Below, in pieces: positions 5,400-30,684 of a DNA stretch of 30,684 bases (its first letter is position 1; every line of letters begins with the position of its first letter). The position numbers and the translations under genes are program-made. The DNA comes from a virus. Location of the stretch: IMG/VR virus record IMGVR_UViG_3300020478_000041, positions 1 through 30,684 of that record; one strand, given 5' to 3'. The notes beneath the pieces are model-generated. The model worked only from the letters and a program-made list of their open reading frames with translations. It did no database searches and was not told the origin of the DNA.

Positions 5400-5410
5400 C
5401 GCTCAACCCC

Positions 5411-5728: not shown

Positions 5729-5746
5729 GCGGACATACCTCATCAA

Positions 5747-5753
5747 TAAATAG
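5747..5753 (-). promoter_or_regulatory. CTATTTA motif, candidate late promoter
   Basis: The coding strand reads AACTATTTATT, 18 nt before the ATG at 5728 and directly downstream of the hairpin at 5768-5789. The hairpin-then-motif order fits termination of one unit followed by a new start. Confidence 0.5.
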
Positions 5754-5761
5754 TTATATAA

Positions 5762-5789
5762 AGCAAAAGCCGCTCAAAAGCGAGCGGCT
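5762..5789 (-). terminator. Rho-independent terminator-like hairpin after the tail chaperone
   Basis: On the minus strand AGCCGCTC pairs perfectly with GAGCGGCT around a 6-nt loop (5768-5789) and is followed by TTTTGCTTT. It begins 1 nt after the stop of the chaperone extension frame. Confidence 0.75.
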
Positions 5790-5790
5790 C

Positions 5791-5994
5791 TTATTTCCTA
5801 TGTTTTGATTTAGCCGATCTTTGGGCCGACTCCATCTCTTCCTTTTGGGTTTTGAACTCCTTGATTAGCCTCTGAACGAACCATCTTCGCAATTGAGTAG
5901 GAATATTGTAGGCCTCGAATATAGACCAGCCGCCATGATGTTTTAAAACAAACAGCTCTTCGTAAACAGCCTCTTGATACTCAGGACTTAGGCC
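5791..5994 (-). CDS. Frameshift-encoded C-terminal extension of the tail-assembly chaperone
   Basis: The +1 frame relative to the upstream gene is open from before the T7 run to a TAA at 5791-5793. Downstream of the run it encodes 67 residues, GLSPEYQEAVYEELFVLKHH onward, including FEAYNIPTQLRRWFVQRL and a basic tail ending KSKHRK. This reads like a genuine protein: the pattern of a short HHG segment, an F-EAY turn and an L-RWF-RL helix resembles small proteins or extensions encoded after gp26-type genes in T4-like marine phages. There is no ATG, GTG or plausible ribosome site between the shift site and the conserved part; the first ATG is near the end. Upstream residues in this frame look like out-of-frame reading of the chaperone. 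The most economical explanation is a programmed frameshift that yields a product of about 350 residues. Confidence 0.65.
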   Translation of the reverse strand, partial: GLSPEYQEAVYEELFVLKHHGGWSIFEAYNIPTQLRRWFVQRLIKEFKTQKEEMESAQRSAKSKHRK

Positions 5995-10507: not shown

Positions 10508-11449
10508 TTATTCTCTATAAAAACCATCCTTAATGGTACGGGGGATATCTCCAAGTACCGCCCTTTCTCTTCCAAACTTAAACTCGACGGCATTTTCGCG
10601 TCGGACAATTTTAGGTTTTTCTTGATTTTCCCCTTCTCCGATTAAATAACCCATCACTTCGATATTGATAGTGGTTTCGTAATTGCGCTGTTCCATTCCC
10701 AGCGCGGCTTTGTTGGACCCATTGCTAAAAGATCCGTCTATAAAAACCTCAAAGGCATGACCTTCGTTAGTAATTCTACGTGGCATGCGGGAATTACCAG
10801 GCACTGTTATAAACGGCCCAATAAGTTGATTAATCTGCTGTTGATACTCGGTTCTCAATGTTATCTCATATACTACTTTTATCCAGACTGGTAGCGGCAT
10901 CGTGATTGTTTCATAAACTGTCTTGGTTGTCATCTGCCGTTTATTAACATTAAGTTCTTTAGAAGAAACCGTGGCGGGGCTCCCAAATTTTCTATTTACT
11001 TTTGCATTTTGAAACTCAGCAGTCTTTTTCTGGTTAATCTGGCGGGCTACCGTGATGGTGCCCCCTTTGGCATCGTTAACCGGGTAAATATTGGCGTAGA
11101 CTGTGCCCCGAAAGTTGGGTTCTTTCGTTACACTAGCACGGTTGACCGTAATCAACGGCAAGATCAACATTTCTTCTGAATCTCTAAGATCTTTGTTGTG
11201 CTTAAGCTGGTATGCTCTTTCTGCAGAGACCCATAAAACTGGAACCTTTTTAAATCCCTTGTTTGTTCCCAAAGAAAGGTTGAGATCTTCATCGATAAAC
11301 TTCAGCATGGCGCCATCGATCGTTTCTAGCGTCGAAGGCATAAATTCTATTTCGCCTAGCTTACTTTCAACTTCCTTATCGCCAACCGCATCATACTTCT
11401 GCGCTGCGGTATCTTGAATCTGGTCTTGGGTCCGGCGGCTTCTAGACAT
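10508..11449 (-). CDS. gp15: Tail terminator / sheath stabiliser gp15
   Basis: This 313-residue protein resembles T4 gp15, the ring that caps the finished tail tube and sheath and joins it to the neck. The shared pattern is a VPVLWVSAERAYQLK segment followed by LPLITV, then a VVYEITLRTEYQQQINQLIG helix and, after PRRI, an FEVFIDGSFSNGSN region and an INIEVMGYLIGEG strand. T4 gp15 is 272 residues with the same order (PITYASKE, YELSIFTRYEDD, LTFEVNGW, as recalled). It lies 4 nt after the preceding neck gene and directly before the sheath, the T4 order gp13-gp15-gp18. The ribosome site is GGGG within the end of the previous gene. There is no membrane segment. Confidence 0.75.
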   Translation of the reverse strand: MSRSRRTQDQIQDTAAQKYDAVGDKEVESKLGEIEFMPSTLETIDGAMLKFIDEDLNLSLGTNKGFKKVPVLWVSAERAYQLKHNKDLRDSEEMLILPLITVNRASVTKEPNFRGTVYANIYPVNDAKGGTITVARQINQKKTAEFQNAKVNRKFGSPATVSSKELNVNKRQMTTKTVYETITMPLPVWIKVVYEITLRTEYQQQINQLIGPFITVPGNSRMPRRITNEGHAFEVFIDGSFSNGSNKAALGMEQRNYETTINIEVMGYLIGEGENQEKPKIVRRENAVEFKFGRERAVLGDIPRTIKDGFYRE

Positions 11450-11453
11450 TTAT

Positions 11454-12722
11454 CTACCCCACAAAAATGCCAGCAGGTATATTCGACAAAACCTTCTCTG
11501 CTGAATCTTGCATAGAGGAGTCGATGACCGCCAACTTGTCGTAAGTAGTCTCTTCGAGAATAGTTTTCAGTTCCTCTCTCAAGGCTGTCATTTCGGAAGC
11601 AGCTTGGCCCAAAAGCTCAGCAGCATTTAGATTAACACTTTCGCCCGGAATAGGAACTGTCGCAAACTTACCACGGATCTGGCCCAGCATCTCTTTGCTC
11701 AAAGCCAAAGCGAAGCGGCGGATCCATTGTTTGCCAATAGAGTTGATGTTGGGATAGGGTATATTCTGGAATGGCAGCGTATTAAGGTTGTTAATTCCCT
11801 CCACGCCTGCTTTGCCACGACCAGTTTCGTCCCATGGCTGATTTTCTCGATCAATAGTAAACTGCACCCAGATCTTAGCTGGGCTCGTGCTATCGGGCTG
11901 CGGGAAAAGACGTAACCAATTGTCTTTAATCTCGTAGGAATAATGAGAAATGCGAGTCCACAACGCATCTTCATACGCCATGGCTTGAAGTTTGTTTTGC
12001 CACGTAGGAACGATTTCAAAAGTGGAATCATCTGCATACTGACCATAAGTACGCATGTTGCCTACTACTGAAAACCCTCCATAATAACCATAGAACCGCC
12101 ACATAGCGCGGGGTGTCTTAAAAAACACCTTTCTGATTATCACACGCTTGTCCTGTATCTTGCCATAATACGGAACTGTCGTATCATTGGCAGATGATTG
12201 AGAAAGGAGCGTTTGCAAATCGTAATCCTGTACAGAAGCTGTGCGTTGTATAGAAGCTGAATAAATGGGGGTCAATCCGCCTAGGCCCGTGTCGGTGGCG
12301 ATGGCCTCCGAAACACGACGAACATATCCATAATCAAAACGCGGATAACGTAATTCGATGGTAGAGCCCGACAGCGCGTCGCCTGAAACAATTTGGCCGT
12401 CTTGGTCAAAAGAGGCGGTTGCAGCGCCGAGATAACTTGATAATGAGTTCTTGCTTTGATGCAGATTCACGATATAGGAATATTCTAAGACCGCTTCTTC
12501 ATATGCCGAATAAACATTACCCTCGGTTAGCTCGATATCTAATACATCTCCACCCAGCTTTTTATATGTATAAGCCACCTGATCGGCGGCACCAGACAAG
12601 AAAGCTGCTGAGCCTGCATAGATGCCAAAGGGTAGCGTCACGGCCACATTGGTGGTGCTTCCCGTAATAGGAAGAATGTTCGTGGTGGTGGTGGACGCAG
12701 GATTTAATTTTGGAATGGCCAT
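11454..12722 (-). CDS. Neck protein, gp13-like head-completion/connector protein
   Basis: This 422-residue protein carries a head-tail connector pattern near residues 48-85: VAYTYKKLGGDVLDIELTEG, then VYSAYEEAVLEYSYIVN. This resembles the N-terminal helix bundle of gp13-like and gp6/gp15-type adaptor proteins that dock under the portal. The middle has FFKTPRAMWRFYGYYGGFS and NWLRLFPQPDS, strands seen in gp13 homologues of T4-like phages. The C-terminal region (about 350-410) is helical. T4 gp13 is 309 residues, so the central region is expanded. It follows gp23 across a terminator and candidate promoter, and precedes gp15. GAGGA lies about 9 nt before the ATG at 12722. The connector role is likely; the precise identity is less sure. 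Confidence 0.6.
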   Translation of the reverse strand: MAIPKLNPASTTTTNILPITGSTTNVAVTLPFGIYAGSAAFLSGAADQVAYTYKKLGGDVLDIELTEGNVYSAYEEAVLEYSYIVNLHQSKNSLSSYLGAATASFDQDGQIVSGDALSGSTIELRYPRFDYGYVRRVSEAIATDTGLGGLTPIYSASIQRTASVQDYDLQTLLSQSSANDTTVPYYGKIQDKRVIIRKVFFKTPRAMWRFYGYYGGFSVVGNMRTYGQYADDSTFEIVPTWQNKLQAMAYEDALWTRISHYSYEIKDNWLRLFPQPDSTSPAKIWVQFTIDRENQPWDETGRGKAGVEGINNLNTLPFQNIPYPNINSIGKQWIRRFALALSKEMLGQIRGKFATVPIPGESVNLNAAELLGQAASEMTALREELKTILEETTYDKLAVIDSSMQDSAEKVLSNIPAGIFVG

Positions 12723-15822: not shown

Positions 15823-18666
15823 CTAATATGTTCCGATGTTCTCCGGTAATGCAATTGCCTTCATTATTAGAGGCGGGTAGGCTCCCGACCATCGGAAGGT
15901 GGCTGAATCTCCCACATTGTAAATAGCAAGACCAAGATAAAAACTATAAGAGGTCCCGGGAGTTAAACCAGTGAGGGTCCACTCTACAACATGCTGCTGG
16001 ATGTCTGATTCATCAGCGAGGCATATAATCTGCTTCGATTCATAAACACTAGTGCCATCGAGTGGATCTGAATAGGTGGACCAACTACTTCCATTTGTAG
16101 AAAGTGCCATAACTGCATAATCGCCCGAGTTAACATCCACAACTATCTGTGCCGTGAGGAGCACGTTTCCACCCGGAGGTGCTGTAAAAGTAACAAACGA
16201 TTTGCTGCTGCCACTGACGGCATAAGTCGGTGTCTGGCTGGTTGTTGTTTGTTGGATCTGATCATTATTCCCGGAGGCTCCGACAAAATACCCCAGGACA
16301 GCGCCCGGAATGTCAGCTGTCGGTGCCGTAATTTTTACACTGGCCGAGACATTGTGGTCTTTGTCGATGGTGAGAGACGTTACGCCGGCATTATAGAATT
16401 CGAAAGAACCCGTAGTGGTTTCATTACGGAATGAATAAGCTTCATTGCCTGTAGATCCAAACCCAATCCATGCGGCACGAGTAAGAGCGCCGCCGGCATT
16501 AGTGTAATAGTAGTCTTGGTAGCTTACTACTCCCTGCCCATCACGAGTATCTGAATCATACCACCTGAGATTGGGTGCAGTACCAGTGACCATGAGGGTG
16601 CCGTCTACAACGCAGTTCCCGTCTATCTGAGTATTCCCCTTCACATGCAAGGATGCGGAAGGTTCGACGCCGTCGCTGAGACCAATGGAAAGTTTGCCCG
16701 TTGTGGGGATTATCAAGTTGCCGTTAGAGCATGTGACGTTTTGGTTGCCATCGAGGAGGAGCGCGGGCGTTCCGTTACCGCTTCTTAAGTAAAGAGAATG
16801 CCCTGCGACGCTGGTGCCAAATAGGGTATATCCAAGGTCGTATCCACTAATCCATTCTGCATGTTGCCCCACGGCAGGAGAAGATAGGTAAATTCGACTC
16901 GACCCGGCATTCGTACCCATAAGGGTCATGCCGGGGTAGCCATCCGACCCCTGTTCGAGGACCAATGTTCTAGCCGTCCAGTCAGGCGACCTGTTAACCG
17001 ACCCGGATTTAATGTGGAGAGAACCAGAGGGCTCCACTCCAGCTGCCAGACCGATACCGACGCGTGTTCCAGCAAACACGTGACCCTCCGTAACAAACGC
17101 CGAGCCACTTATGCCGCCGGATGCCGAAACGGCGCCGGCAACATCCAAGAGGTGAGTGGGCGACGAAGTTCCGATACCAAGTTTACCATCGCCCCTAAGC
17201 ATCATGCGCTCAGTTAAAGTAGTAGAACCCGACGTCACAGTGTGAAACGATATTCTTCCCCCCTGTGAGGCTCCATCGGCCCACGATGCATCGTCTGCCT
17301 CGCCAAGGATCATAGCAGCATATCCAAAACTCGTATTATCCTCGGAACCTGCGAAACGAATCTCTCCTAAATTCTCCCCGTTAGGCAACGAAGCATCGCC
17401 ATATTTGCGAAAGTCTAACTGCGCGCCATCGTTGATGCTTGTGTCTTCAGACCAAATAATGAGTTGAGGTATATCGGTTCCAGAAGTTGATCTGATTACT
17501 GCGTCACCCCTTACATCCAGTTCGACGGTGGGGACCGTCGTTCCAATACCGACGCGTGTTCCAGCAAACACATGGCCATCCGTAACAAACGATGAACCAC
17601 TCACCCCGGCAGAGGCTGACATAATACCGTCGACAGTAACATTGCCTCCTGCGGGGTCTAAAGTAATGTTTCCATCAACAGTAAATGTAAGATTAGCCGC
17701 AGTACCGTCATCATCAACTGTTGTGATGGTGGTTGCGCCGGCGGTGGTGGTTTGAATCTGGAAGTAATCGCCACTATCGGCTGAGCTTTGAATCCTAAGA
17801 TCGACATTGTTAGCGCCGTCCTCAACGTCAAGTTGGAGTCCATAGTTGAAGTCGCCGCCTTGTGCTGAGATCCTTGTGCCGGTGATGAGACTGCTGCCGT
17901 TTGTGCTACCTTGTGCATCAATACGCGCGCCGTATACATAGGCGGCGCCGGCGTCAGCAGCATGCGTAAGCGTCGGCGTGACAGTCAAACCATACATGGT
18001 GTTGGTGCCATTGGTGGCTGTGGTGTTATCCATGTCAACTTTGAGACCGTACATGGTGTTGTTTGATGTGGAAGCACCAGTTTTGTCAAAATCGATATCT
18101 ACTCCGACTAGTGTGGTTGCAGTAGTATCTGAGTGGCTCTTGACCATTTTGAGAGAACCAGAACCATCGTATGTCATGCCACTGTTCCCAGCGAAAGAGC
18201 CATTCTGATTGAACTGTATATTAGTATCAGAGCCCGCGGCGTCGCCGGTCGCGATTCCAGTAAGATTGCTGCCATCGCCATGGAAAGTGGATCCCGAAAC
18301 TTGACCGTCTGTTACGAAGGATGAGCCACTCAGTCCAGACGAAGCCGAAAGTGGGCCTTGAATGGCAACAGAGCCAGTAAATTGATGCAGATCAGTAGCG
18401 TCGTCGCCAAACTTGGAGGCACCACTAGCAGAAAGATAAGAAACCGTATGGTTTATGACATCATAGTTGTCGGATATAACCGTACCCGAAACATAGATAG
18501 ACCCAGTAAAGAAGAGAGAGTCGCTGCCCGTTACATATGTAAAATTAGAAGAGCCGGTTTGTGCGGTCCCGCTACCATATTTATATTGTACTGCGCCAAT
18601 AGGACCATCGGCGCCCTCGTCGGCGCTGCCGCTAACATACGCCCATCCTAAATACTTTCTAGCCAT
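15823..18666 (-). CDS. Large fibre/adhesin protein with repetitive shaft and tip domain
   Basis: This 947-residue protein is built from Gly/Ser/Thr-rich beta repeats. The N-terminus (MARKYLGWAYVSGSADEG) is a short adaptor-like segment. The shaft shows FHGDGSNLTGI, NIQFNQNGSFAGN, and recurring VTDGHVFAGTRVGIG plus VGIGTTVPTVELDV units, typical of trimeric phage fibres. Residues about 800-947 form a distinct domain (TFTAPPGGNVLLTAQIVVDV, then VEWTLTGLTPGTSYSFYLGL, ending PPLIMKAIALPENIGTY), a likely beta-sandwich tip for receptor or glycan binding. No S74 chaperone domain is seen. GGAGA lies about 9 nt before the ATG. It is the last of five repeat-rich fibre-like genes and immediately precedes gp22. 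Whether it is mounted on the head, neck or tail cannot be told from sequence. Confidence 0.75.
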   Translation of the reverse strand: MARKYLGWAYVSGSADEGADGPIGAVQYKYGSGTAQTGSSNFTYVTGSDSLFFTGSIYVSGTVISDNYDVINHTVSYLSASGASKFGDDATDLHQFTGSVAIQGPLSASSGLSGSSFVTDGQVSGSTFHGDGSNLTGIATGDAAGSDTNIQFNQNGSFAGNSGMTYDGSGSLKMVKSHSDTTATTLVGVDIDFDKTGASTSNNTMYGLKVDMDNTTATNGTNTMYGLTVTPTLTHAADAGAAYVYGARIDAQGSTNGSSLITGTRISAQGGDFNYGLQLDVEDGANNVDLRIQSSADSGDYFQIQTTTAGATTITTVDDDGTAANLTFTVDGNITLDPAGGNVTVDGIMSASAGVSGSSFVTDGHVFAGTRVGIGTTVPTVELDVRGDAVIRSTSGTDIPQLIIWSEDTSINDGAQLDFRKYGDASLPNGENLGEIRFAGSEDNTSFGYAAMILGEADDASWADGASQGGRISFHTVTSGSTTLTERMMLRGDGKLGIGTSSPTHLLDVAGAVSASGGISGSAFVTEGHVFAGTRVGIGLAAGVEPSGSLHIKSGSVNRSPDWTARTLVLEQGSDGYPGMTLMGTNAGSSRIYLSSPAVGQHAEWISGYDLGYTLFGTSVAGHSLYLRSGNGTPALLLDGNQNVTCSNGNLIIPTTGKLSIGLSDGVEPSASLHVKGNTQIDGNCVVDGTLMVTGTAPNLRWYDSDTRDGQGVVSYQDYYYTNAGGALTRAAWIGFGSTGNEAYSFRNETTTGSFEFYNAGVTSLTIDKDHNVSASVKITAPTADIPGAVLGYFVGASGNNDQIQQTTTSQTPTYAVSGSSKSFVTFTAPPGGNVLLTAQIVVDVNSGDYAVMALSTNGSSWSTYSDPLDGTSVYESKQIICLADESDIQQHVVEWTLTGLTPGTSYSFYLGLAIYNVGDSATFRWSGAYPPLIMKAIALPENIGTY

Positions 18667-21597: not shown

Positions 21598-22869
21598 TTA
21601 ATAAATAAACCAATTAGTGCCGTTCGAATAAAGCAAAATAGAACCATAAGGAGATTCGATAGTTACGTCACTCGCTCCGTCAATAGTCTGAGAAGCAGAA
21701 GCCGCAACCGATATAGTATTGGAGACACTTGCAGCGCCCGACTCATCCTTAATAACCAACACTTGACCTTCGGAAAACGAGGTTGCATCCACTTCAATTT
21801 CTGTCGGAACAGCACTTACTCCCAAAATATAATCAGTTACCGAAGCCGTATAGACGGTTGACACAGTCGTACGATGATGAACGACGCCTCCCGATAGATG
21901 AGAGCCCCCCTTTACCGTAACAGTAGAACCATCATAGGTTAGGTTAGCTGATGCCCCGAAAGATCCATTATTATTAAACTGTATCTGAGTGTTGGCGCCA
22001 TCGGGTGACGTCGTTCCGCCACCCCCAGTTGTTAAAACAACATTATTATCTGTGTCTAAGGATAAAAAACTGCCCGGACCGGCGATTGTTCCTGAAACTG
22101 GTTCTATATTAACTAATGACGCGGAAAGAGTTGTCATTTCCGCAACTGACCCAGTATAAGATCCGGTGAGAGTCGCCCCATTAAAAGTTAAATTAGCTGA
22201 GCCCCCAAACGAACCGGCATTATTGAACTGAATCTGCGTGGTGGCGCCACCAGGGGTTCCACCCCCTCCCGAGCCAGTTAGGCGTGTAAGCGCATAGTCC
22301 CCAACATAAATGAATGCATCCACATAAGCCGGATTTTCATCCGAATCAGTGGGAGGATCCTGTTGAAAAAAGATTCCGTTATAATAATCTAATACCCAGT
22401 CACGAGCATCAAGAGCGGGGATTTGAGTAATTCCGGAGGACGTATGATATACGAGAGCAGTATAGGCAGCACCAAAGGAAGGAGGGATAATCTGAAGGGT
22501 TCCGGTTGTTTCATTTAAAACCTGACCGTTAACATAGAAGCCGCTGCCAGCATTGGGATTGGATGATTTAGACTCATAGTCTGCTGGCAGGCTTAATGCA
22601 AATGCCTGATAGCGACCGTTCGAGTCTTTGGTGCCCGCCATTGGAGTAGCCACTAATGATACCATCTCAGCAACGCCCCCCAAAATAGTATAATATGAAC
22701 TCGAAACAGGTGTAGGGGGCTCATACCCAAAGATAGTGCTCGCCCCCATACTGATGTTGGAACCAATACCCTCGTTCGAAACTCCCTTTGTATTAGAGGT
22801 TTGTGCCTTTCCTAAGACCTTTTTGAACGAAAGATTAAGTTTTGAAGTATCTGTCAATGCAGTGGACAT
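21598..22869 (-). CDS. Fibre-like structural protein sharing shaft modules with the neck-fibre fusion
   Basis: This 423-residue protein has a non-repetitive N-terminal domain of about 195 residues (LTDTSKLNLSFKKVLGKAQT; later DWVLDYYNGIFFQQDPPTDS and VDAFIYVGDYAL). I have seen such a domain at the start of phage tail-fibre or adhesin genes. Residues about 205-310 are shaft modules, TTQIQFNNAGSFGGSANLTF, LTGSYTGSVAEMTTLSAS and FLSLDTDNNVVL, which also occur in the 1419-residue protein directly upstream. The C-terminal 110 residues form a tip domain with IDGASDVTIESPYGSILLY and SNGTNWFIY. The ATG directly abuts the upstream stop (TAA-ATG) with GGGGAG before it, so the two fibre genes are translationally coupled and their products may act together. 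Confidence 0.7.
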   Translation of the reverse strand: MSTALTDTSKLNLSFKKVLGKAQTSNTKGVSNEGIGSNISMGASTIFGYEPPTPVSSSYYTILGGVAEMVSLVATPMAGTKDSNGRYQAFALSLPADYESKSSNPNAGSGFYVNGQVLNETTGTLQIIPPSFGAAYTALVYHTSSGITQIPALDARDWVLDYYNGIFFQQDPPTDSDENPAYVDAFIYVGDYALTRLTGSGGGGTPGGATTQIQFNNAGSFGGSANLTFNGATLTGSYTGSVAEMTTLSASLVNIEPVSGTIAGPGSFLSLDTDNNVVLTTGGGGTTSPDGANTQIQFNNNGSFGASANLTYDGSTVTVKGGSHLSGGVVHHRTTVSTVYTASVTDYILGVSAVPTEIEVDATSFSEGQVLVIKDESGAASVSNTISVAASASQTIDGASDVTIESPYGSILLYSNGTNWFIY

Positions 22870-25800
22870 TTAGCTACTCCCCCATGATATACTTAGGGCC
22901 GAGATATATCCAGTCCACGCTGCGTCAGCGACTATTTTTATAACTATGTTCTCATTTTGCTCAACAGTTTGTGTAACAAAAGTGCCTTCATGAGTGTCAC
23001 TATTGATCTCTAGACCGCCTGCCGGTGGCGTACCCACATATGCCCCATCAAAATCGCCCAGCTGTGCTGGGTCACTGGCAGTGGCAGAACCTAAATCAAG
23101 CCATCCAGTGGCCTTTCCAGTGGATGTGGTAGGCAATTTAACAAATACATGTATGTTAGTGCTAGACAATGCGGTTGTCGCCGGGACAATACGCGTTGAG
23201 GAGTCACCCGTAAACGTAAGTTCAAAGTTAGTCTGAGAAGCTGCACCAGTATTAGTAAAGTAACGGAAAAGTGTACGAACACCTGAGATTCCCGAATAAT
23301 CAACATTTGAACTTGGACCATTGGAGACGGCACTGAAGTCTCCGCTATTAGGTATATCACTATCAATTGGAGAATAGAGTCGCTGGTTGTAGTATAAAAG
23401 GCCATCATTAGTAAGCAAAGAGCTTGTCGAGTTCCATGCATTTGAAGAAGACGTTACGTCAGTTTGTGCAGCATAAGAAGACAGGCTTCCCGAGATCACA
23501 CGATAATCTTCGCGCCTGAAGGTTTCACTAGTAGTGGTAGATGTGTTGGCTCTATTATATGCGAGAATACCACTGATCGACTGAGATCCTCCATTCGACA
23601 GATTAGACTTGAGAGGATGAGCAACATTGACGCCAGCCGCAATAGAACTATCTAAGATCGAAGTGGTATCAATCGTAAGGCTGCCCGTCAATTGCAAAAT
23701 CTTCGTTTCGTCTTCGCTCCCCACGCTAATGCTAGGCATCGCCTGTGACGGAATGGAACCATTTGTAACAGTATAGGAAATGTTCGTCGAAGTATAGACA
23801 TTTCTATACGCGTTCGACACATCAGTTCTGTACTGAGCAGTGCCGGCAGTGTGATACTTGACTCCGGATATACGTGTATCACCGCTCATGGACAAGGTAT
23901 CCAGCGCGCTGTTTGAGGCGGCCAGAGCATTACTATTAGAATCGTTAACCCAGGCAACAAAGTTAGTAGTGCGATCAAAGGTTGAAGAAGTATGAACCAC
24001 ACGCAAGTAGTTCCACCCTTCCCGCTGATCAGCTGCTACAACCTTGTATTTACCCGTACGATGTTGAAACAGATCCAATTCCGTTCCATCTGTAAACTCT
24101 GCTGACCCGGTTTGACTGAGATCATAAAAACCGGACCCATTGCCGTTTAGCTGAGTTCCAGTTCCAGAGCCGGGGACGCCGGTGCCGACTGCAGGGTCGG
24201 TCATGGAGGCAGTATGAAGCGTAGAACCGTTAACCTCTAATACTAAATTTCCAAGGTCAGCATCGCCAAATGAATTAGCTGGGTAGTTTACACCATCTGC
24301 AGAGACATCCTCGTTGAGGTCTCCGTTTATTACAGTACTACCATTGAAGGTGCCGCGTCGCAGGTTGTTGCTACTTGTAGAGGTGGAATACGTTCCGTTA
24401 ATGTCAACGGCCGAGAAGCCGGCATCCGTGCCTACGTTGGTATAACCACTAATGGACTGTGAAGACCCAAAGGAAAGTTCCGCCGACGCGCCACTATCAT
24501 TGCAATCAATGTCATCTAGATTAGGAGCGGGGCCTGGGGATAGAGCCTTTAAGATTTCATTGAATCGATCGACGGCTGTGCCGACTGGAGTGGTTACCGC
24601 AAAATCAGTAAAGAGACCATCCGCATAAGAACTATCCTCGGCAGCTCCGATAGTTAAACCGGTCAATGCGTCGCCGCCGCCATGATAAGAGCTGGCTGAC
24701 ACTGTACTAGAAGCCGTGATCCGGCCTGTTACGTTAAAGACAGATCCATCAAAAGCTAGGCCGGCGTTCGATATAACATCGTTGCTGTTCATGTATAAAA
24801 TTTGATTATTGGAAAAATCAGAACCCAGTAGTTCCATGCTATTAAAAGCCGCCGTATCGCCGTCAACCGCCGCGGAGCTTGATATAGCCCCACTGACTGT
24901 AAGCGTGCTCCCAAGAATGGCTGCGCCGACGACCTCCAAAGTGCTAGAACCAGACATCGTTCCTACTACGCCGAAGTTGCTGCCATCAAAGGTGAGGCCC
25001 GCATTTGACGTAACGTCGTTGCTGGACATATATAAAATACGATTCGTTGCAAAGTCTCCCCCCATTAATTCCATGCTATCGAATGCCGCAGAACTCGCAT
25101 CGACACTACTAGCACCGGATATGGCCCCACTCACCGTTAAGGTGCTTCCTAACGTAGCGGCACCCACGACTTGCAACGTGCTAGAGCCCGACACTGTTCC
25201 CACCACAGCGAAGTTGCTGCCATCGAAAGTAAGGTTACTAGAGCCACCAAATGCGCCGGCGTTATTAAACTGTATCTGAGTGTTGGCGCCTCCGGGGCTT
25301 GTGGTTGCCCCGTCGCCTGGAGACAAGACAACGTTGTTGTTTACATCTAGTGACAAGTAGCTGCCCGGGCCCGCAAGAGTGCCACTAGCCACGCTTAGGT
25401 TTACTGCTGAAGCTGACAGGGTTGACACCTCTGCGAGAGAGCCAGTATAAGATCCCGTCAGCGTTGTGCCGTTAAAAGTTAAATTAGCAGAGCCGGCAAA
25501 TGCACCCGCACTATTGTACTGCAACTGAGTTGTAGCGCCGGCGGCTGATGTGGTGATGCCACTCAGATTAGAGCCGTCGCCATAAAATGCAGAAGCCGAG
25601 ATATTAACCGAGGCCGACATAGAACCGCTTACTGAAACTTCGTGATCAGGTGCGGACGTACCTCCGATGGCCAGACTACTCGTTACATAAGCCTGACTTC
25701 CATTAATAGTGGTGAAGATGCCTCCGACGCCACCCCCAGTCGAGGAGGTTACAATAAAGTTATTATTTGCATCCAAAGCTAGATAACTGCCGGGGCCTCC

Positions 25801-27129
25801 CATCGAGCCCGAAGTCGGTACCAGATTCATTAAAGATGCCGAAAGTGTTGTCAGTTCTCCAACCGACCCAGTATAGGACCCTGTGAGAGTGGTACCATTA
25901 AAAGTAAGATTAGAAGATCCGGCAAAAGAGCCTGCGCTGTTAAACTGTATCTGCGTGGTGGCGCCGGCAGGCGAAGTTGTGATGCCGCTTAAATTTGATC
26001 CATCGCCGTAAAATGCAGAAGCCGATATATTCACCGATGCCGACACAGATCCGCTTACTGAAACCTGATGATCTGGGGCTGACGTACCTCCGATGGCTAA
26101 GCTGCTCGTTACATATGCTTGACTCCCATTAATGGTGGTGAAGATGCCATCGCCACCAACACTGGCTGCCGAGGAGGTGACAATAAAATTGTTGTTGGCA
26201 TCAAGGGCTAGGTAGCTTGCGGGGCCACCCATGGAGCCCGAAGTTGGAACTAGGTTAAAAGCAGACGCCGACAAGATACCGGTTTGAACGCCCACAGAGG
26301 ATGAAACAGTGCCCGAAACATTCAGGGCGCTGCTTCCTGTTAAAAACACCACATTAGCACTGCCACTAAAACTACCGGCACCAACTTGAAACTGCAGCGA
26401 GCCAGTTGGGCCCACAGCATTTTGCCCCGAAGCAGCGATTGTCAGGCTGCCACCAGCACCCCCATCGGTTAGGGTGATTCCCGTCCCGGCAGCGAGCTTT
26501 CGTTCATTAGGAAGCTGTGTATCGTTGGTAACAGTTATATAGGTCGCTGCCAGAGGCGGGTAAGGAGCAGCACGGGGAGCGGGGGCCGTGCCCTCTCCCG
26601 CCACAGTGGCGCGCTCCGTTGGTCGAGTAAGCGCAGGGGTCACCCTAAAGGCACCCTCTCTGGCACGAACGCACTCGGCACTTATCTGAAACTTATGTTC
26701 TACCTGGCCAAAATAGAAACGCGTATCATTATAGGTTCGAACAATCTCATAAAACAAATCGCCGTACTGCACAAAATCGCCGACACGGACATACAAGTCC
26801 TGATCTTCTACTAGGCGCCGACGATTAAAATTAACTGTGAGTTTTGTTTGGTACTCATAACCATAACGATCGTTATTTTGTTCGTTTTCAACTTCAACAA
26901 ATGCATATACGCGAATAGGGGGCAGAGAAACCTTTTCAACTGCCTCACCATATGTATCGTTAAAATTAGAATCTTTTATGCTTATGGGATAATAAGCAAT
27001 AGGTTGCCCAATTACTCGTTCTGCAAGCTCATCATTGATTTGCTTAACAAGGTTGCGCTCTTTCTCTCCAAAGAACATTGGAGCCGGTGGCGCTGCGGGT
27101 CTTTCCCACTTATTTTTTGGGTTTGCCAT
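22870..27129 (-). CDS. Giant neck-anchored fibre candidate: gp14-like domain fused to a repetitive fibre
   Basis: This 1419-residue protein opens with about 165 residues that are roughly three quarters identical, without gaps, to the whole small neck-like protein encoded 14 nt upstream (both begin MANPKNKW and share VRVGDF-QYGDLFYEIV and NDTRFYFGQVEHKFQ). A Pro/Ala linker follows (about 165-195), then shaft sequence (ITVTNDTQLPNERKLAAGTG) and multiple repeats to about residue 830: two 142-residue units containing FYGDGSNLSGI and AIGGTSAPDH, and two 79-residue units containing STLTVSGAIS and MELMGGDF. From about 850 a large non-repetitive C-terminal region begins (VDRFNEILKALSPGPAPNLD) and ends ISALSISWGSS. 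The N-domain should dock where the small protein docks, and the rest should project. GGAG lies about 12 nt before the ATG. Confidence 0.8.
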   Translation of the reverse strand: MANPKNKWERPAAPPAPMFFGEKERNLVKQINDELAERVIGQPIAYYPISIKDSNFNDTYGEAVEKVSLPPIRVYAFVEVENEQNNDRYGYEYQTKLTVNFNRRRLVEDQDLYVRVGDFVQYGDLFYEIVRTYNDTRFYFGQVEHKFQISAECVRAREGAFRVTPALTRPTERATVAGEGTAPAPRAAPYPPLAATYITVTNDTQLPNERKLAAGTGITLTDGGAGGSLTIAASGQNAVGPTGSLQFQVGAGSFSGSANVVFLTGSSALNVSGTVSSSVGVQTGILSASAFNLVPTSGSMGGPASYLALDANNNFIVTSSAASVGGDGIFTTINGSQAYVTSSLAIGGTSAPDHQVSVSGSVSASVNISASAFYGDGSNLSGITTSPAGATTQIQFNSAGSFAGSSNLTFNGTTLTGSYTGSVGELTTLSASLMNLVPTSGSMGGPGSYLALDANNNFIVTSSTGGGVGGIFTTINGSQAYVTSSLAIGGTSAPDHEVSVSGSMSASVNISASAFYGDGSNLSGITTSAAGATTQLQYNSAGAFAGSANLTFNGTTLTGSYTGSLAEVSTLSASAVNLSVASGTLAGPGSYLSLDVNNNVVLSPGDGATTSPGGANTQIQFNNAGAFGGSSNLTFDGSNFAVVGTVSGSSTLQVVGAATLGSTLTVSGAISGASSVDASSAAFDSMELMGGDFATNRILYMSSNDVTSNAGLTFDGSNFGVVGTMSGSSTLEVVGAAILGSTLTVSGAISSSAAVDGDTAAFNSMELLGSDFSNNQILYMNSNDVISNAGLAFDGSVFNVTGRITASSTVSASSYHGGGDALTGLTIGAAEDSSYADGLFTDFAVTTPVGTAVDRFNEILKALSPGPAPNLDDIDCNDSGASAELSFGSSQSISGYTNVGTDAGFSAVDINGTYSTSTSSNNLRRGTFNGSTVINGDLNEDVSADGVNYPANSFGDADLGNLVLEVNGSTLHTASMTDPAVGTGVPGSGTGTQLNGNGSGFYDLSQTGSAEFTDGTELDLFQHRTGKYKVVAADQREGWNYLRVVHTSSTFDRTTNFVAWVNDSNSNALAASNSALDTLSMSGDTRISGVKYHTAGTAQYRTDVSNAYRNVYTSTNISYTVTNGSIPSQAMPSISVGSEDETKILQLTGSLTIDTTSILDSSIAAGVNVAHPLKSNLSNGGSQSISGILAYNRANTSTTTSETFRREDYRVISGSLSSYAAQTDVTSSSNAWNSTSSLLTNDGLLYYNQRLYSPIDSDIPNSGDFSAVSNGPSSNVDYSGISGVRTLFRYFTNTGAASQTNFELTFTGDSSTRIVPATTALSSTNIHVFVKLPTTSTGKATGWLDLGSATASDPAQLGDFDGAYVGTPPAGGLEINSDTHEGTFVTQTVEQNENIVIKIVADAAWTGYISALSISWGSS
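24746..25210 (-). repeat. Diverged tandem repeat, period 237 bp, in the giant fibre gene
   Basis: Two in-frame copies begin near 24746 and 24983 and encode 79-residue units with matching features (NAGL-FDGS-F, S-STL-VVGAA-LGSTLTVSGA, FNSMEL or FDSMEL, ILYM-SNDV). They are clearly homologous but substantially diverged at the DNA level. Confidence 0.85.
25574..26255 (-). repeat. Diverged tandem repeat, period 426 bp, in the giant fibre gene
   Basis: The copies start near 25574 and 26000 and encode 142-residue units with FYGDGSNLSGITTS, VSVSGS, AIGGTSAPDH, FTTINGSQAYVTSS and SYLALDANNNFIVTSS. Single-base differences are scattered mostly at third codon positions, so purifying selection acts on the repeat protein. 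Confidence 0.9.
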
Positions 27130-27143
27130 TCATTCGATCTCCG

Positions 27144-27659
27144 TCATTCATCCCGAGTAAGCTGACGCTTAACTCGAAATGATCCTTGGCGTGCACGAAT
27201 GCATTCAGCACTCACCTGAAACTTGTGTTCCACTTGACCAAAATAGAACCTAGTATCATTATAGGTTTTAACTATTTCGTAAAAAAGATCACCATATTGA
27301 ATAAAGTCCCCCACGCGTACATAAAGGTCTTGATCATCAACAAGCCTTTTGCGATTAAAATTTACTGTGAGCTTTGATTGATACTCATAGCCATATCGCT
27401 CATTAGTTTGTTCACTGTCGACAATGACATATGCAAAAACGCGAATCGGTGGTAATGTAACCTTATCAATGGCCTCACCATATGTGGTGTTGAATTGTGT
27501 GTCTTTGACACTGATCGAATAATATGCAACAGGCTGTCCCACCACCCTCTCGGATAGTTCATCATTAACTTGTTTTACCAAGTCGCGCTCTTTTTTACCA
27601 AAGAAAAGAGGAGGCGGAGGTGCATCTGGCTGGTCCCATTTATTTTTTGGATTTGCCAC
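27144..27659 (-). CDS. Neck protein, gp14-like head-completion protein
   Basis: This 171-residue protein has no repeats or membrane segments. The C-terminal half reads VRVGDFIQYGDLFYEIVKTY, then TRFYFGQVEHKFQVSAEC. This parallels the conserved part of T4 gp14 as I recall it (GDLIYFP, LFEI, DPFYQLG), the neck protein that completes the head with gp13. The N-terminal half (ERDLVKQVNDELSERVVGQP, AYYSISVKD) also matches the gp14 layout in order. T4 gp14 is 256 residues, so this is a short version. The start is a GTG at 27659 with GGAGG about 9 nt upstream. The next gene, 14 nt downstream, begins with a paralogous copy of this entire protein. The gp14 assignment is by pattern, not by a search. Confidence 0.55.
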   Translation of the reverse strand: MANPKNKWDQPDAPPPPLFFGKKERDLVKQVNDELSERVVGQPVAYYSISVKDTQFNTTYGEAIDKVTLPPIRVFAYVIVDSEQTNERYGYEYQSKLTVNFNRKRLVDDQDLYVRVGDFIQYGDLFYEIVKTYNDTRFYFGQVEHKFQVSAECIRARQGSFRVKRQLTRDE

Positions 27660-27697
27660 TCACGTACCCTCCGATAAAAGGATTTAGTATATCCTCC

Positions 27698-28096
27698 TTA
27701 GCCTACCACTGCGTGTATAGACCCTGACCAATTAGATCCGGATGGTGATAAAGACGGATTATTAATGTAAGTCATGTCAATACCGGTCAGCCCCGCCATC
27801 ACATCGACCAAGGTGCCGCCAGAAAGATATAGCTCGGTTACTTTAACCTTATAAATCTGACTTTCATCGGCGTCAAGAAGGATATAGTTATTCCCAACTA
27901 CACCATTGGACGAAAAGCCAACCCTACAGTCAGCGGTACTGCCTATGTTGCTCACTATAACCCACTGAGTCACAGAGGGAAAACTTATTTTTATCGGTCC
28001 ATGAACCGCGTTGATACCGCCGCTGACAAAAGGAATGCCAGACGATTGATACGCCGCCACACTTCCTAGTCCTGGTTTATAATTATAAGTCGCCAT
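27698..28096 (-). CDS. Small virion structural protein (beta-rich), function unknown
   Basis: This 132-residue protein begins MATYNYKPGLGSVAAYQSSG, followed by PFVSGGI, ISFPSVTQWVIVSNIG and VKVTELYLSG. The pattern of a GLGxxxxYQxSGxPF start, a FPxVT strand and a later LYLS strand recalls small proteins annotated as structural in T4-like marine phages, probably a beta-sandwich decoration or neck component. It has no signal peptide or transmembrane segment. GGAGA lies about 9 nt before the ATG at 28096 and a CTATTTA motif lies 18 nt upstream, so it may head the transcript that includes the neck protein and the fibres. No exact function can be assigned. Confidence 0.6.
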   Translation of the reverse strand: MATYNYKPGLGSVAAYQSSGIPFVSGGINAVHGPIKISFPSVTQWVIVSNIGSTADCRVGFSSNGVVGNNYILLDADESQIYKVKVTELYLSGGTLVDVMAGLTGIDMTYINNPSLSPSGSNWSGSIHAVVG

Positions 28097-28114
28097 AGTT
28101 TTATCTCCGTCTAA

Positions 28115-28121
28115 TAAATAG
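28115..28121 (-). promoter_or_regulatory. CTATTTA motif, candidate late promoter of the neck/fibre block
   Basis: The coding strand reads TGTGCTATTTATTAG, 18 nt before the ATG at 28096, in the 41-nt gap after the bS21 gene. Confidence 0.5.
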
Positions 28122-28137
28122 CACAGTATAAACTGTT

Positions 28138-28359
28138 TTATCTAAACAATTTGTTATCCTTTTTTCTTTGAAGCTTTTGCGCTTCGCGTTTTGCTTTCTC
28201 TCTTTTCATTTTCCTGCGCACCGAGGGCTTAATAAAATGATCCGTGCGCGCTCTATAAGTTTCAATAACTTTAGCTTTTTTGCACTTTTTAATGAATCGC
28301 CTTATCAGTCTTTCTGACGTTTCGCCTCGTCGCAAATCTACTCTGATGTTTGTGGCCAC
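28138..28359 (-). CDS. rpsU: Ribosomal protein bS21 homologue
   Basis: This 73-residue, strongly basic protein matches bacterial bS21 along its length: a short beta start (TNIRVDLRRGETSERLIRRF), the IKKCKKAKVI helix, a hinge YRARTDHFIKPSVRRK, and a Lys/Arg-rich helical tail (MKREKAKREAQKLQRKKDNK) ending LFR. Bacterial bS21 is about 70 residues and sits on the 30S platform near the anti-Shine-Dalgarno sequence, where it affects initiation. Phage-encoded bS21 is known from cultured and uncultured viruses. The start is a GTG at 28359 with AGGTG about 5 nt upstream and a 7-nt gap from the preceding stop; no ATG alternative exists nearby. Its place inside a structural operon suggests late expression, when it could replace the host protein on ribosomes. 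Confidence 0.9.
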   Translation of the reverse strand: MATNIRVDLRRGETSERLIRRFIKKCKKAKVIETYRARTDHFIKPSVRRKMKREKAKREAQKLQRKKDNKLFR

Positions 28360-28366
28360 ACTGCAC

Positions 28367-28810
28367 CTACTTTCCTTCTTTTACGTCGCTCATGTGAGCA
28401 TTCCAGTTTCTACCAACTGACCCAAATAGCTTGCCTATATCAACGCCCGGATCAGTGGGTGCTTGACCCGCAAGGGGAGCTGCCATTTGTTGTGGTGATG
28501 TTTCGGATGCCGCGGGCATCGTTCCCTCAAAAAGGTCGACACCATTATAGGCGCTGGTTCCGATTGCTGACATAAGCTTGTTTTTGTGCTCTTGTAATTT
28601 CGTTTTTTGTTGGTTGTTAAACGCATTCTCAGTCATACGCGTGGCCACTGGGTCCGTCGCGACCGGGGCGGCGGTTTCGGTAACCGGATCAGCTATTCCA
28701 CGCGCCACCTCTCTAACTATCCCCGACAAAACCCCATCTTCAAGAATGGCCTCTTTGACACACTCTTTTATAAGGGGCTTCAGGATATTCTTTAGTTCTG
28801 CTTTTTTCAT
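28367..28810 (-). CDS. Small helical protein, possible prohead core component
   Basis: This 147-residue protein starts with an amphipathic helix (KKAELKNILKPLIKECVKEA, then ILEDGVLSGIVREVARG). A Pro/Ala/Thr-rich low-complexity part follows, then a Lys/Asn/Gln helix, NGVDLFEGTMPAA and a second Pro/Ala-rich part. Several I/L-x-E tripeptides occur (ILE, LQE, LFE), the motif cut by gp21-type proteases. It is encoded 12 nt after gp21, where T4-like phages often place small core proteins. I recall similar short genes with this helix and a GVDLFEGT-type segment beside gp21 in marine T4-like phages, but no function is known to me. GAGG lies 7 nt before the ATG at 28810. Confidence 0.65.
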   Translation of the reverse strand: MKKAELKNILKPLIKECVKEAILEDGVLSGIVREVARGIADPVTETAAPVATDPVATRMTENAFNNQQKTKLQEHKNKLMSAIGTSAYNGVDLFEGTMPAASETSPQQMAAPLAGQAPTDPGVDIGKLFGSVGRNWNAHMSDVKEGK

Positions 28811-28822
28811 TTAAACCTCGTA

Positions 28823-29419
28823 TTATTCTAAAATACTATCGATCAAAGATATGATTCGATTATTTTTAAGTACTTCCTTATCTCTCAGCTTGCCTTCCTG
28901 CAGGGCCATAAATGCATTTGGCGTCGAAGGTTCTGACACAATGTCAAAACAAATTAACTGAAAATCATCTTCAACGATTGTCTTACCCATTTGCTCACGA
29001 ACCGACCCCATTCCTCGCGACGAGATGCCAGTCTTAACTCCACACTCCACCAAAGATCGTAGAATCTGTCCCGAAGGGGTATTAAGAACCTTAATCTTTC
29101 CCATCACTGCGGGGCCTTCCATCCATACCTCGGTAACCATATGTGACACATTGGCAAGATTGATAATCGAAGAGTCCGGGTGGTCTAGTTCTCCCAAAGC
29201 ACGGTTGTCTTCAACCATTGCTGCGTACTTCGTAACTTCGCGTTCCATAATAGCATGCGGATAGATACGACCATTGCCGTTCTGAACGTCCGACTCTTGT
29301 AACTTGCCCGTAAGCATCATGCCGCCCTCTTTTACAAATTTCTTTTCGGCTTCCGTCAGCAGGTCCTGACAGACACCACCTTCGCATAGTTCATAAAATT
29401 CTCGTAGTAGCTGTGCCAT
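28823..29419 (-). CDS. gp21: Prohead protease gp21
   Basis: This 198-residue protein is the T4-type maturation protease that trims the prohead scaffold and capsid proteins. The start shows MLTGKLQESDVQNGNGRIYP, and the catalytic regions ALGELDHPDSSIINLANVSH (His80) and VKTGISSRGMGSV (Ser133/Ser134) are intact, matching the GELDHP and GISSRG motifs of T4 gp21. The later segment FQLICFDIVSEPSTPNAF is also typical. T4 gp21 is 212 residues, so this is a full-length enzyme. The ATG at 29419 is 3 nt after the previous stop, with GAGGAA in the end of that gene, so translation is coupled. Predicted substrates in this window are gp22, gp23 and perhaps the neighbouring 147-residue protein. Confidence 0.93.
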   Translation of the reverse strand: MAQLLREFYELCEGGVCQDLLTEAEKKFVKEGGMMLTGKLQESDVQNGNGRIYPHAIMEREVTKYAAMVEDNRALGELDHPDSSIINLANVSHMVTEVWMEGPAVMGKIKVLNTPSGQILRSLVECGVKTGISSRGMGSVREQMGKTIVEDDFQLICFDIVSEPSTPNAFMALQEGKLRDKEVLKNNRIISLIDSILE

Positions 29420-29422
29420 TGT

Positions 29423-30028
29423 TTATTCCTCGAAGCGGCTTACAGGAACCATCTCTGCCAGATCATTTAGCGTGGTCTGTATATTCTCGACCGAATTATT
29501 TATCTTGCGAAGTTCGGTCCAGATATCCACCCCCGCATCGATGTTGCTCGGTATAGCTCGGACAGGCTTTGAGGCACGGGCGAGGCTCTCGTTTATTGCG
29601 TCCACGGATGACTGGATCAATTCTATAGAGTCCGTCATGCCGCGTACCAAGTGTGGAGATGCTGCATCAAGTTTATGATCCAAATACGGAGTATCTAAAT
29701 AGGGTGTGTGCCTCATCGGATGGTCGGGGTGCCCTTTCAGCGGTTTGCCGCGGCGGGCCTCTTCCAACGGGACTTCGTCTTCCGGGTCGGGGCCCATGGC
29801 CTGGTCAATAGCATCGCGTGCGGCAGCCATACCTGCGCCAAAAGCTTCTTCAGGTGAAAGTTGGCTGATGTCGTCAACGTGCACTTCCATACCGGGAGCA
29901 CTAATATCAATTGCTTCGTCCCCTTCTTCGGCGTGAGGGCAGCCCTCCTCCAGCTCTTCGTCGTGATCTACTGTCTCGTGCAAGAAGTACCTGGGGTCTA
30001 TTCTTTTTACATTTTTTCTGCGTGCCAT
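29423..30028 (-). CDS. Acidic protein of unknown function upstream of the protease
   Basis: The preferred start is the ATG at 30028, giving 201 residues: AAGGGA lies about 10 nt upstream and the protein then opens MARRKNVKRIDPRYFLHETV, a compact basic-to-acidic N-terminus. The longer frame from 30073 would begin inside the hairpin at 30054-30073 and is disfavoured. Residues about 20-100 are rich in Glu/Asp with HAEEGDEAIDI and PDPEDEVPLEEARRG. The last 70 residues are helical and coiled-coil-like (TDSIELIQSSVDAINESLAR; LRKINNSVENIQTTLNDLAE). It occupies the place of the small prohead core genes 67/68 in T4, just ahead of gp21, but no sequence similarity to them is evident. A core or assembly role is a guess. 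Confidence 0.7.
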   Translation of the reverse strand: MARRKNVKRIDPRYFLHETVDHDEELEEGCPHAEEGDEAIDISAPGMEVHVDDISQLSPEEAFGAGMAAARDAIDQAMGPDPEDEVPLEEARRGKPLKGHPDHPMRHTPYLDTPYLDHKLDAASPHLVRGMTDSIELIQSSVDAINESLARASKPVRAIPSNIDAGVDIWTELRKINNSVENIQTTLNDLAEMVPVSRFEE

Positions 30029-30053
30029 TGTTTTAATTCCCTTAAAGTTTAAC

Positions 30054-30073
30054 GTGGGGCCTTTCGGCCCCAC
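30054..30073 (-). terminator. Perfect GC-rich hairpin with GAAA loop, terminator or stabilising stem
   Basis: The minus strand reads GTGGGGCC-GAAA-GGCCCCAC, an 8-bp perfect stem with a GNRA tetraloop, then GTTAAACTTT. It lies 25 nt after the membrane-protein stop and 25 nt before the ATG at 30028. The U-run is poor, so an mRNA-stabilising or processing role is as likely as termination. Confidence 0.6.
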
Positions 30074-30098
30074 CTAAAGTATGCTACCTGAGCAGCAC

Positions 30099-30446
30099 CT
30101 ACGAACTGGTTGGATCATCCATTTTGTCATGATTCTCACCTCCTTTATGGACCACTCGGATCCCGTAATCCTCTACCAACATACTCAAAAAGTATGAGGT
30201 TCCAGCACTAATGCAACCGCACATAAACGCCGTCATGGGCTGATTGCTAAAACTAAATAGTTCTGTATAGGGACTTATGCCCCACAGAAACACGCCAACC
30301 CAAAATCCCATGCACAAATGGCAGTGGAATAAACGGCCAAAGCCGCCCATTGATTTACAGGGTGGCCGGATCTTATTAAAAATGTGTCCGTGTATAATAA
30401 TAAATGTCATGCCGTATGCGGCAAGTATAAAATGTAGTAATTCCAT
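30099..30446 (-). CDS. Small Cys-rich membrane protein (DUF1360-like pattern)
   Basis: This 115-residue protein has three hydrophobic segments at about residues 3-20, 44-58 and 71-90, with a hydrophilic C-terminus. Between the first two lie CKSMGGFGRLFHCHLCMGFW and GV, with Cys at 30, 42 and 45; two more cysteines (76, 78) are in the third segment. The C-x-x-C-x-GFW-G pattern at the membrane boundary resembles the small bacterial membrane proteins grouped as DUF1360, of unknown function. AAGGA precedes the ATG at 30446 and the upstream stop is 13 nt away, so it belongs to the same transcript as the head genes. A membrane protein in a late head operon could act at the host envelope, but nothing here shows how. 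Confidence 0.7.
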   Translation of the reverse strand: MELLHFILAAYGMTFIIIHGHIFNKIRPPCKSMGGFGRLFHCHLCMGFWVGVFLWGISPYTELFSFSNQPMTAFMCGCISAGTSYFLSMLVEDYGIRVVHKGGENHDKMDDPTSS

Positions 30447-30459
30447 TAATCCTTCTTTC

Positions 30460-30684
30460 TTATTTAAAGTAACCGGTGCTTCCGAGGATCATGTGGTAAT
30501 TTAGATCGACTGCGGTTGGGCTCGCAGGCTCCAAGTTTTTTGGCACCTCGGCATCTGCGGGATAAGCTGTTACGTACCCGGTATCGGGAAAAACAAAAAA
30601 TACATAATCTGTTTTCCAAGATTTGGAAGAATCCGTGCCTTCTTTTTTATCCTTTTTTTGAATCCTAGACCCAAGGATGCCCCA
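30460..30684 (-). CDS. 3' end of an unidentified gene, cut by the window edge
   Basis: An open frame enters from the right edge and ends at a TAA at 30460-30462, giving the last 74 residues. They begin WGILGSRIQKKDKKEGTDSS, with a charged, low-complexity start, and continue KTDYVFFVFPDTGYVTAYPA and LNYHMILGSTGYFK. No family is recognised. The even codon structure, clean stop and 13-nt distance to the next start support a real gene. In T4-like phages the portal or small core genes precede gp21, so this could be a head gene, but the C-terminus does not resemble a portal end I know. Confidence 0.65.
   Translation of the reverse strand, partial: WGILGSRIQKKDKKEGTDSSKSWKTDYVFFVFPDTGYVTAYPADAEVPKNLEPASPTAVDLNYHMILGSTGYFK

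Follow-up and report, generated by a model that had tools for sequence, protein, structure and literature searches.

A gp14-type head-closure domain fused to a fibre-like chain, away from its usual gene slot, in uncultured phages related to T4

Two neighbouring genes in the virus record IMGVR_UViG_3300020478_000041 (IMG/VR, positions 1 to 30,684; the whole 30,684-base stretch is here referred to as the window) encode closely similar domains, which make up a small protein in one case (SHORT) and only the beginning of a giant protein in the other (LONG). This raises the question of what the domain does in the virion and what it means that one copy carries a long chain. The minus strand of the window holds T4-type prohead protease, major capsid protein, sheath, tube and hub genes with SHORT and LONG among them, and the phage group to which it belongs consists of uncultured phages related to T4. 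The explanation that is considered likely as a whole is that a gp14-type head-closure protein moved away from its original place, was fused to a probable neck fibre, and would form mixed rings in phages that have both genes in tandem. The pair is made up as follows:

27144-27659, minus strand: SHORT, gp14-type head-closure (stopper) protein, 171 aa, GTG start; assignment from an AlphaFold2 (AF2) model, Foldseek, and relatives in the gp13-gp15 slot
22870-27129, minus strand: LONG, gp14-type N-domain fused to a fibre-like chain, 1419 aa, ATG start
26635-27129, minus strand: LONG residues 1-165, gp14-type domain, 128/165 identical to SHORT
27130-27143, minus strand: 14-nt spacer from the SHORT stop to the LONG start, containing GGAG, which resembles a ribosome-binding site

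SHORT and residues 1-165 of LONG align without gaps, and 77.6% of the positions are identical, or 156 of 165 when similar residues (BLOSUM62) are included. This agrees with an earlier reading of the same DNA (the original prediction), which had described an end-to-end alignment with about three quarters identity and mostly conservative changes, and which had also noted the continuation of the second copy through a Pro/Ala linker into repetitive fibre sequence; a Pro/Ala-rich linker followed by an S/G/T/A-rich part is indeed present. When SHORT was searched against the window record, LONG was the second match (E 6.7e-97), with no internal stop. At the DNA level, 356 of 495 positions are identical, and the differences are distributed over codon positions 1/2/3 as 35/12/92. 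For codons 2-165, the proportion of nonsynonymous differences (pN) is 0.13 and that of synonymous differences (pS) 0.82; synonymous sites are near saturation and pN is low, and both copies are therefore old and constrained. As judged from the two sequences, the pair goes back to an old duplication in tandem, with strong constraint on both proteins, and is neither a chance resemblance nor an echo of assembly.

The two-gene layout, which the original prediction had proposed to look for in related phages, recurs. Viral loci were collected by pattern starting from SHORT and the best 80 of 87 were used, with near-duplicate contigs included, so that the layout counts are not a census; SHORT and LONG stand in tandem in 14 of these 80 loci, the window being the 15th pair. 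The SHORT stop lies 12-18 nt from the start of the LONG domain in all 15 pairs, and in one of them (L001, a 165-kb contig) the N-domains of SHORT and LONG are identical. All loci carrying LONG are metagenomic virus contigs and repeats can confuse assembly, from which it could be argued that the tandem layout and the layout with LONG alone (fused-only) are artefacts of assembly or annotation. This is barely credible, since 37 distinct LONG N-domains lie in open frames, the spacing is consistent, and the two copies in the window, being 72% identical in DNA, are too different for a collapse. Among phage records, a DNA search with 22870-30684 gave no match, and protein searches with SHORT-family sequences found only Microcystis phage Mel-JY01, four records of Flavobacterium phage immuto, and the uncultured phage LR756508.

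What the N-domain is was approached by fold and by profile. The AF2 model of SHORT, built from a 65-row alignment of the window and viral-locus sequences, is of moderate confidence (predicted local distance difference test, pLDDT, 71.6; predicted template modelling score, pTM, 0.60) and consists of a helix at residues 22-40 followed by a beta core. Against the PDB, Foldseek placed T4 gp14 at rank 1 (9mkb_0, E 1.8e-5, TMq 0.61) and rank 2 (9lu7), and all eight matches at E<=0.001 came from phage neck, stopper or connector entries. VIA-align, used as a second look at the matches from Foldseek, gave Z 10.6 to the Chi neck protein (root-mean-square deviation, rmsd, 3.2 A) and Z 8.6-9.2 to T4 gp14, and the predicted viral structures (BFVD) that match the model include several annotated neck proteins. 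In the accessible part of a description of the T4 neck, gp14 is built of an N-terminal loop, a helix and a beta core, and the order of elements in SHORT agrees with it (PMC12270204). When two family alignments (A1 and A2) were compared with ten T4 proteins by hhalign, gp14 was best (P 2.8e-4 and 2.8e-3, respectively), and the nine others gave P of at least 0.09 and 0.19. On the basis of the fold, the gene order in relatives described below, and this weak profile match, the identification of the N-domains of SHORT and LONG as gp14-type neck (head-closure) domains is supported. The same lines of evidence bear out the earlier description of the small protein as a gp14-like neck component; the competing case of a baseplate or tail adaptor found no support, all Foldseek matches at E<=0.001 being neck or connector structures. 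A weak Pfam match to TssN (E 0.0069, below the cut-off) was read as a chance beta-sheet similarity.

In T4, the neck genes stand in the order 13-14-15. A SHORT homologue that is 67-79% identical to that of the window is found directly between gp13-like and gp15-like genes in 24 of the 80 loci, and the gp13-gp14-gp15 order is also seen in Mel-JY01, in the 484-kb phage LR756508, and in two contigs of metagenome-assembled genomes (MAGs; L185 and L186). The window contains both flanking genes:

11454-12722, minus strand: gp13-like neck adaptor (Ad2); phrog_211, E 3e-12; hhalign to the T4 gp13 family, P 1e-9
10508-11449, minus strand: gp15-like tail terminator; best T4 protein by hhalign gp15, P 7e-5

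These genes are 4 nt apart, i.e., the gp14 slot is empty, and the gp14-like domains are encoded ~14 kb off. The product of the gp15-like gene and that of its positional counterpart in Mel-JY01 are 25% identical over 220 aa; that the 313-aa product of the window gene is the real gp14 was ruled out, because its best T4 profile is that of gp15, and gp14 gives P 0.35. The empty slot is not peculiar to the window: 13 of 16 records (window included) hold gp13 and gp15, always adjacent (at most about 20 nt, from coordinates) and with the gp14-like genes ~6-14 kb away, and the other three hold neither. A family-profile search of 15 records and a SHORT-only search of 31 records (those 15 included) detected no gp14-like domain beyond the single copy or the tandem pair. 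It might be proposed that the domain serves as an adaptor elsewhere, at the baseplate or the sheath end, and that another, undetected protein closes the head, given that stopper-like folds also occur in some tail and baseplate proteins (lower-Z VIA-align rows) and that the gene has come to lie among fibre genes. The 24 loci in which such close SHORT homologues stand precisely in the gp13-gp15 slot, together with the empty slot where the gene has moved, make this proposal highly improbable.

Two of the records deserve a separate remark. In immuto (L084, 11992-12447), the gp14-like gene is an unannotated frame, with two small opposite-strand open reading frames (ORFs) annotated over the same stretch; the frame comes after a head-completion gene and a 99-aa ORF. 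A MAG chromosome of candidate division WOR-3 (CP070664; L186, 9129-12680) carries gp13-gp14-gp15-sheath genes of this phage group, as either a prophage or a mis-binned phage.

The 80 loci fall into four layouts, namely, I) gp14-like gene in the slot (24 loci); II) moved but unfused (12); III) fused only (29, plus L080, which is cut at the N-domain); and IV) SHORT and LONG in tandem. The original prediction of a neck-ring paralogue fused to a fibre stands in that a gp14-type domain is joined to a fibre-like chain; it had seen the tandem, and could not see the other three layouts, the empty slot, or the exchange of fibre parts behind a conserved N-domain. Among the moved but unfused loci, a separate fibre-like ORF follows directly after the gp14-like gene in 11 of 12, and by the gene-fusion argument these fibre-like genes are candidates for neck fibres. 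In a tree for which Mel-type and MAG rows served as the outgroup, and in which the outgroup branches are very long, many inner branches weak and the rooting unsure, slot rows lie near the base, followed by moved SHORT and by clades of tandem SHORT and of LONG. For the most part, the rows of tandem SHORT group apart from those of tandem LONG, and the main duplication is therefore old. A second tandem lineage (L064/L068) lies inside the LONG group. L014/L020/L025 adjoin slot-type rows, suggesting two separate fusion origins; a single origin of all fusions was not rejected by the approximately unbiased (AU) test (p 0.081, with groups named after the tree was seen), and neither was the hypothesis that the gene left the slot only once (p 0.397). 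In the history that these layouts suggest, the gp14 gene of an ancestor would have left its place between gp13 and gp15 and landed before fibre genes, and in many lineages the moved gene would then have been joined in frame to a fibre via a Pro/Ala-rich linker.

Eight of the 13 records with an empty slot are fused-only, with gp13 and gp15 present and no other gp14 detected, which suggests that the fibre-bearing protein in these phages is probably the head-closure protein itself. This bears on the idea that SHORT alone forms the gate, and that the N-domain of LONG, once a gp14, now decorates the neck from outside the gate ring, as part of an outer collar. Tandem LONG does differ consistently from SHORT at a few positions, as might be expected for a second site. 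Residue 10 is Arg in all 13 tandem LONG domains, which come from two tree-separated lineages, and in none of 60 other rows, fused-only relatives of the second tandem lineage included; in the main tandem clade, LONG has Asn26 in 10 of 11 and Lys64 in 9 of 11 rows, although a few rows from other groups have these residues as well. Such a collar is nevertheless unlikely in view of the 29 loci with LONG only, the eight fused-only records, and the N-domain of the window LONG itself, which is still 78% identical to SHORT at so low a pN that its ring and gp13 contacts are probably kept. Residue 10 lies in the N-terminal loop of the gp14-type domain, and the accessible text on T4 describes contacts between this loop of gp14 and gp13 (PMC12270204). 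Arg10 in tandem LONG is suggestive of mixing of SHORT and LONG; the same pattern could equally have arisen by common descent, by recombination, or by crossover between the copies of a tandem.

The remainder of LONG and the gene that follows it are divided as follows:

26428-26634, minus strand: LONG residues 166-234, Pro/Ala linker and recurrent stretch; similar forms after the gp14 domain in other LONG proteins
24583-26427, minus strand: LONG residues 235-849, repetitive S/G/T/A/N-rich shaft; segments in common with the next fibre gene
22873-24582, minus strand: LONG residues 850-1419, portable C-terminal module; found on non-gp14 N-termini
21598-22869, minus strand: next fibre gene, whose start codon abuts the LONG stop; phrog_20556 baseplate protein, E 8.9e-6

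The recurrent stretch reads PAPR.APYPPL.A.YITV...NER.L.AGTGI..TDGGAGG..TI, and after the linker LONG is rich in Ser, Gly, Thr and Ala (S+G+T+A about 50%). The shaft repeats in common with the next fibre gene are 70.9% identical over 110 aa, and it is the end of that gene that carries the baseplate-protein PHROG match. Among ORFs uncut by contig ends, the tails of LONG proteins measure 194 to 1256 aa, and matches to tail-fibre PHROGs were obtained for two of six other LONG proteins scanned, L032 (E 2.4e-18) and L015 (E 1.6e-7). The N-domains of L047 and L048 are 99% identical, but no more than 0.35 of the L047 tail can be matched in L048 (best segment 60%); between L047 and the window, identity is 78% in the N-domains and 86% in the last 570 aa. 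Of 12 ORFs compared that contain the 570-aa C-terminal module, a set with near-duplicates and one cut ORF, 10 have a non-gp14 N-terminus; the module also occurs in giant ORFs of five uncultured phage records of 462-735 kb. These comparisons document that fibre shafts and tips are exchanged between phages under a kept gp14-type anchor. Such exchange under a kept anchor is the usual pattern of host contact, which suggests that LONG fibres may make contact with the host. No fold is claimed for the C-terminal 570 aa: the AF2 model is poor (pLDDT 39.8), and its best match, an Eph ligand-binding domain, has Z 7.9, with some phage tail and carbohydrate-binding rows and none at or above 8.

The fusion could also be only an expression arrangement, with LONG as a precursor that is cut in the linker to give a normal gp14 and a free fibre. 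A prohead protease gene is indeed found upstream of SHORT and LONG (phrog_207, E 7.2e-55), and the linker has considerable length and is probably flexible. For the T4 prohead protease, the cleavage consensus is [IL]-x-E, and this motif is absent from LONG residues 160-205; furthermore, LONG proteins resemble one another in the linker and in the stretch that follows, as in a structural joint. Unfused fibre genes at this place start with other N-termini, and a fibre released from LONG would be without such a start. Cleavage is, on this evidence, quite improbable. One such start is a short GWAYVSGS-like sequence on the fibre gene at the same place in slot loci (L067, L072) and in moved but unfused loci (L002, L011, L042). 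Fibre genes of the GWAYVSGS type are also found elsewhere in several fused and tandem phages, the window copy being at 15823-18666; in the tandem locus L041, one lies upstream of SHORT as well (3304-6570).

Two small genes accompany the cluster. A 132-aa protein without significant family match in PHROG or Pfam is encoded at 27698-28096 (minus strand); in most cases its gene immediately precedes the moved gp14 or the fused gene, or, in the slot loci L067 and L072, the first fibre gene, and the protein is a candidate for a fibre partner or a head decoration. A gene for ribosomal protein bS21 (28138-28359, minus strand; PF01165, E 5.7e-11) lies inside the head/neck cluster, and is found in the same place in many relatives and in Mel-JY01.

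Taking T4 as a guide, it is proposed that SHORT and the N-domain of LONG form a hexameric ring after packaging, which would dock on a dodecamer of the gp13-like adaptor and close the DNA exit until the tail joins. LONG would probably be located in this neck ring, with its fibres coming straight from the neck; the chain may leave the ring close to its junction with the tail terminator, at the position of the C-terminal arm of T4 gp14. In fused-only phages, the whole ring would be made from fibre-bearing subunits. In tandem phages, SHORT and LONG would be co-expressed from neighbouring, probably translationally coupled genes, and rings with both subunits are the most likely outcome, which would lower the number of fibres per neck. 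Such a mixed ring is possible; because 29 of the 80 loci have a fused copy only and no other gp14 was detected in the eight fused-only records, it is not needed for the main idea. The fibres of LONG would probably act as neck-borne adhesins or whiskers.

Several observations weigh against this proposal. The SHORT model is only moderately confident, and its rmsd to T4 gp14 is high (6.0-13.5 A in Foldseek, 6.2-8.4 A in VIA-align). Pfam and PHROG profile scans, T4 gp14 profiles included, gave no head-closure match for SHORT. The hhalign probabilities to T4 gp14 are low (41% for A1 and 11% for A2), six of the nine T4 control families held a single sequence, and a control pair in the same run, the gp13-like family versus T4 gp22, reached P 3.9e-3; the weaker gp14 value (2.8e-3) is therefore within reach of unrelated pairs, and the hhalign comparison, taken alone, is weak. 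The eight fused-only records are contigs of 41-194 kb for which completeness is not given, so that a second gp14 may have been missed, and two of them (G006 and G010) share the same N-domain. The Arg10 pattern amounts to only 2-3 changes on the tree (sign test, p 0.5) and possibly reflects recombination, and Gln10 in long-only rows could also stem from crossovers between tandem copies. No PHROG was matched by the window LONG at E<=1, and four of the six other LONG proteins scanned lack tail-fibre matches. Lastly, most phage fibres are homotrimers, and if this fibre is homotrimeric as well, six chains on one ring would be an awkward count.

Known neck structures show where the present arrangement differs. 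T4 gp14 (Hc2, neck protein; PF11649, phrog_679) resembles SHORT by being its best Foldseek match, by element order, by the gene slot of relatives and by a weak profile match; it is a separate protein of 256 aa, whereas the core of SHORT ends near residue 170 and LONG continues for ~200-1250 aa. In the accessible text, the C-terminal region of T4 gp14 (178-256) contacts gp15 in the virion, and the whisker protein Wac is a separate trimeric protein held by gp13 domain III (PMC12270204). T4 fibritin (gp wac) whiskers are likewise fibres at a phage neck, and the wac gene also neighbours 13-14-15; unlike Wac, LONG is covalently fused to a gp14 domain. No fibritin family was found for LONG among Pfam matches at E<=1 or PHROG matches in general family scans, which exclude nothing. 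Anabaena phage A-1(L) also has long fibres on a neck ring, and for it the accessible text describes long flexible gp82-gp81-gp80 neck fibres on a pentadecameric gp5 ring; there, the fibre protein is separate and attaches to this ring through its N-terminal domain, and the hexameric neck protein gp7 is without a fibre (PMC10966104). The collar of phage Milano and the collar spikes of XM1 also surround the neck as rings, with spikes in XM1, and differ in that they are described, in the part of the source at hand, as made of separate collar proteins (PMC10491603). The accessible parts of sources on HFTV1 and moraphages held nothing helpful as parallels. In a cultured phage, too, a gp14 core can carry extra domains, namely in the neck protein of Tenacibaculum phage PTm1 (BBI90684.1, 619 aa; L184, 26941-28800), in which the core at residues 119-324 (phrog_679, E 2.3e-9) is accompanied by ~119 N-terminal and ~300 C-terminal residues; its gp14 role is given by annotation and profile only, and matches to PF11649 (E 5.8e-4) and a laminin-G-like family (E 0.0032) are both below the Pfam cut-off. 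Among the 50 BFVD rows listed, seven matches are of at least 549 aa, and the six besides PTm1 hint at enlarged stopper proteins elsewhere. In the open-access literature, judged by titles and abstract starts, no report was found of a fibre joined to a head-closure protein, a search that left most subscription journals and bioRxiv outside.

In T4, A-1(L), XM1 and Milano, as far as the accessible accounts go, neck fibres and collars are separate proteins that dock on the neck; here the head-closure protein itself, which belongs to the machinery retaining the pressurised DNA, would bear a long exchangeable chain, and in many relatives the chain-bearing protein is the only gp14 detected. The stages in slot, moved, fused and tandem all survive in living relatives, and the history of the gp14 fusion can therefore be followed stepwise. 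A further idea, decidedly speculative and rather unlikely to hold, is that fused-only phages combine the gate and a host-contacting fibre in one polypeptide, so that binding of the fibre could exert a direct pull on the gate or rearrange it and act as a receptor-to-gate trigger that bypasses the baseplate, and that tandem phages would tune the number of fibres through rings in which SHORT and LONG are mixed. The arrangement raises the questions of how a six-fold ring may be combined with a probably three-fold fibre, whether short and long subunits mix, and whether fibres at the neck make contact with the host.

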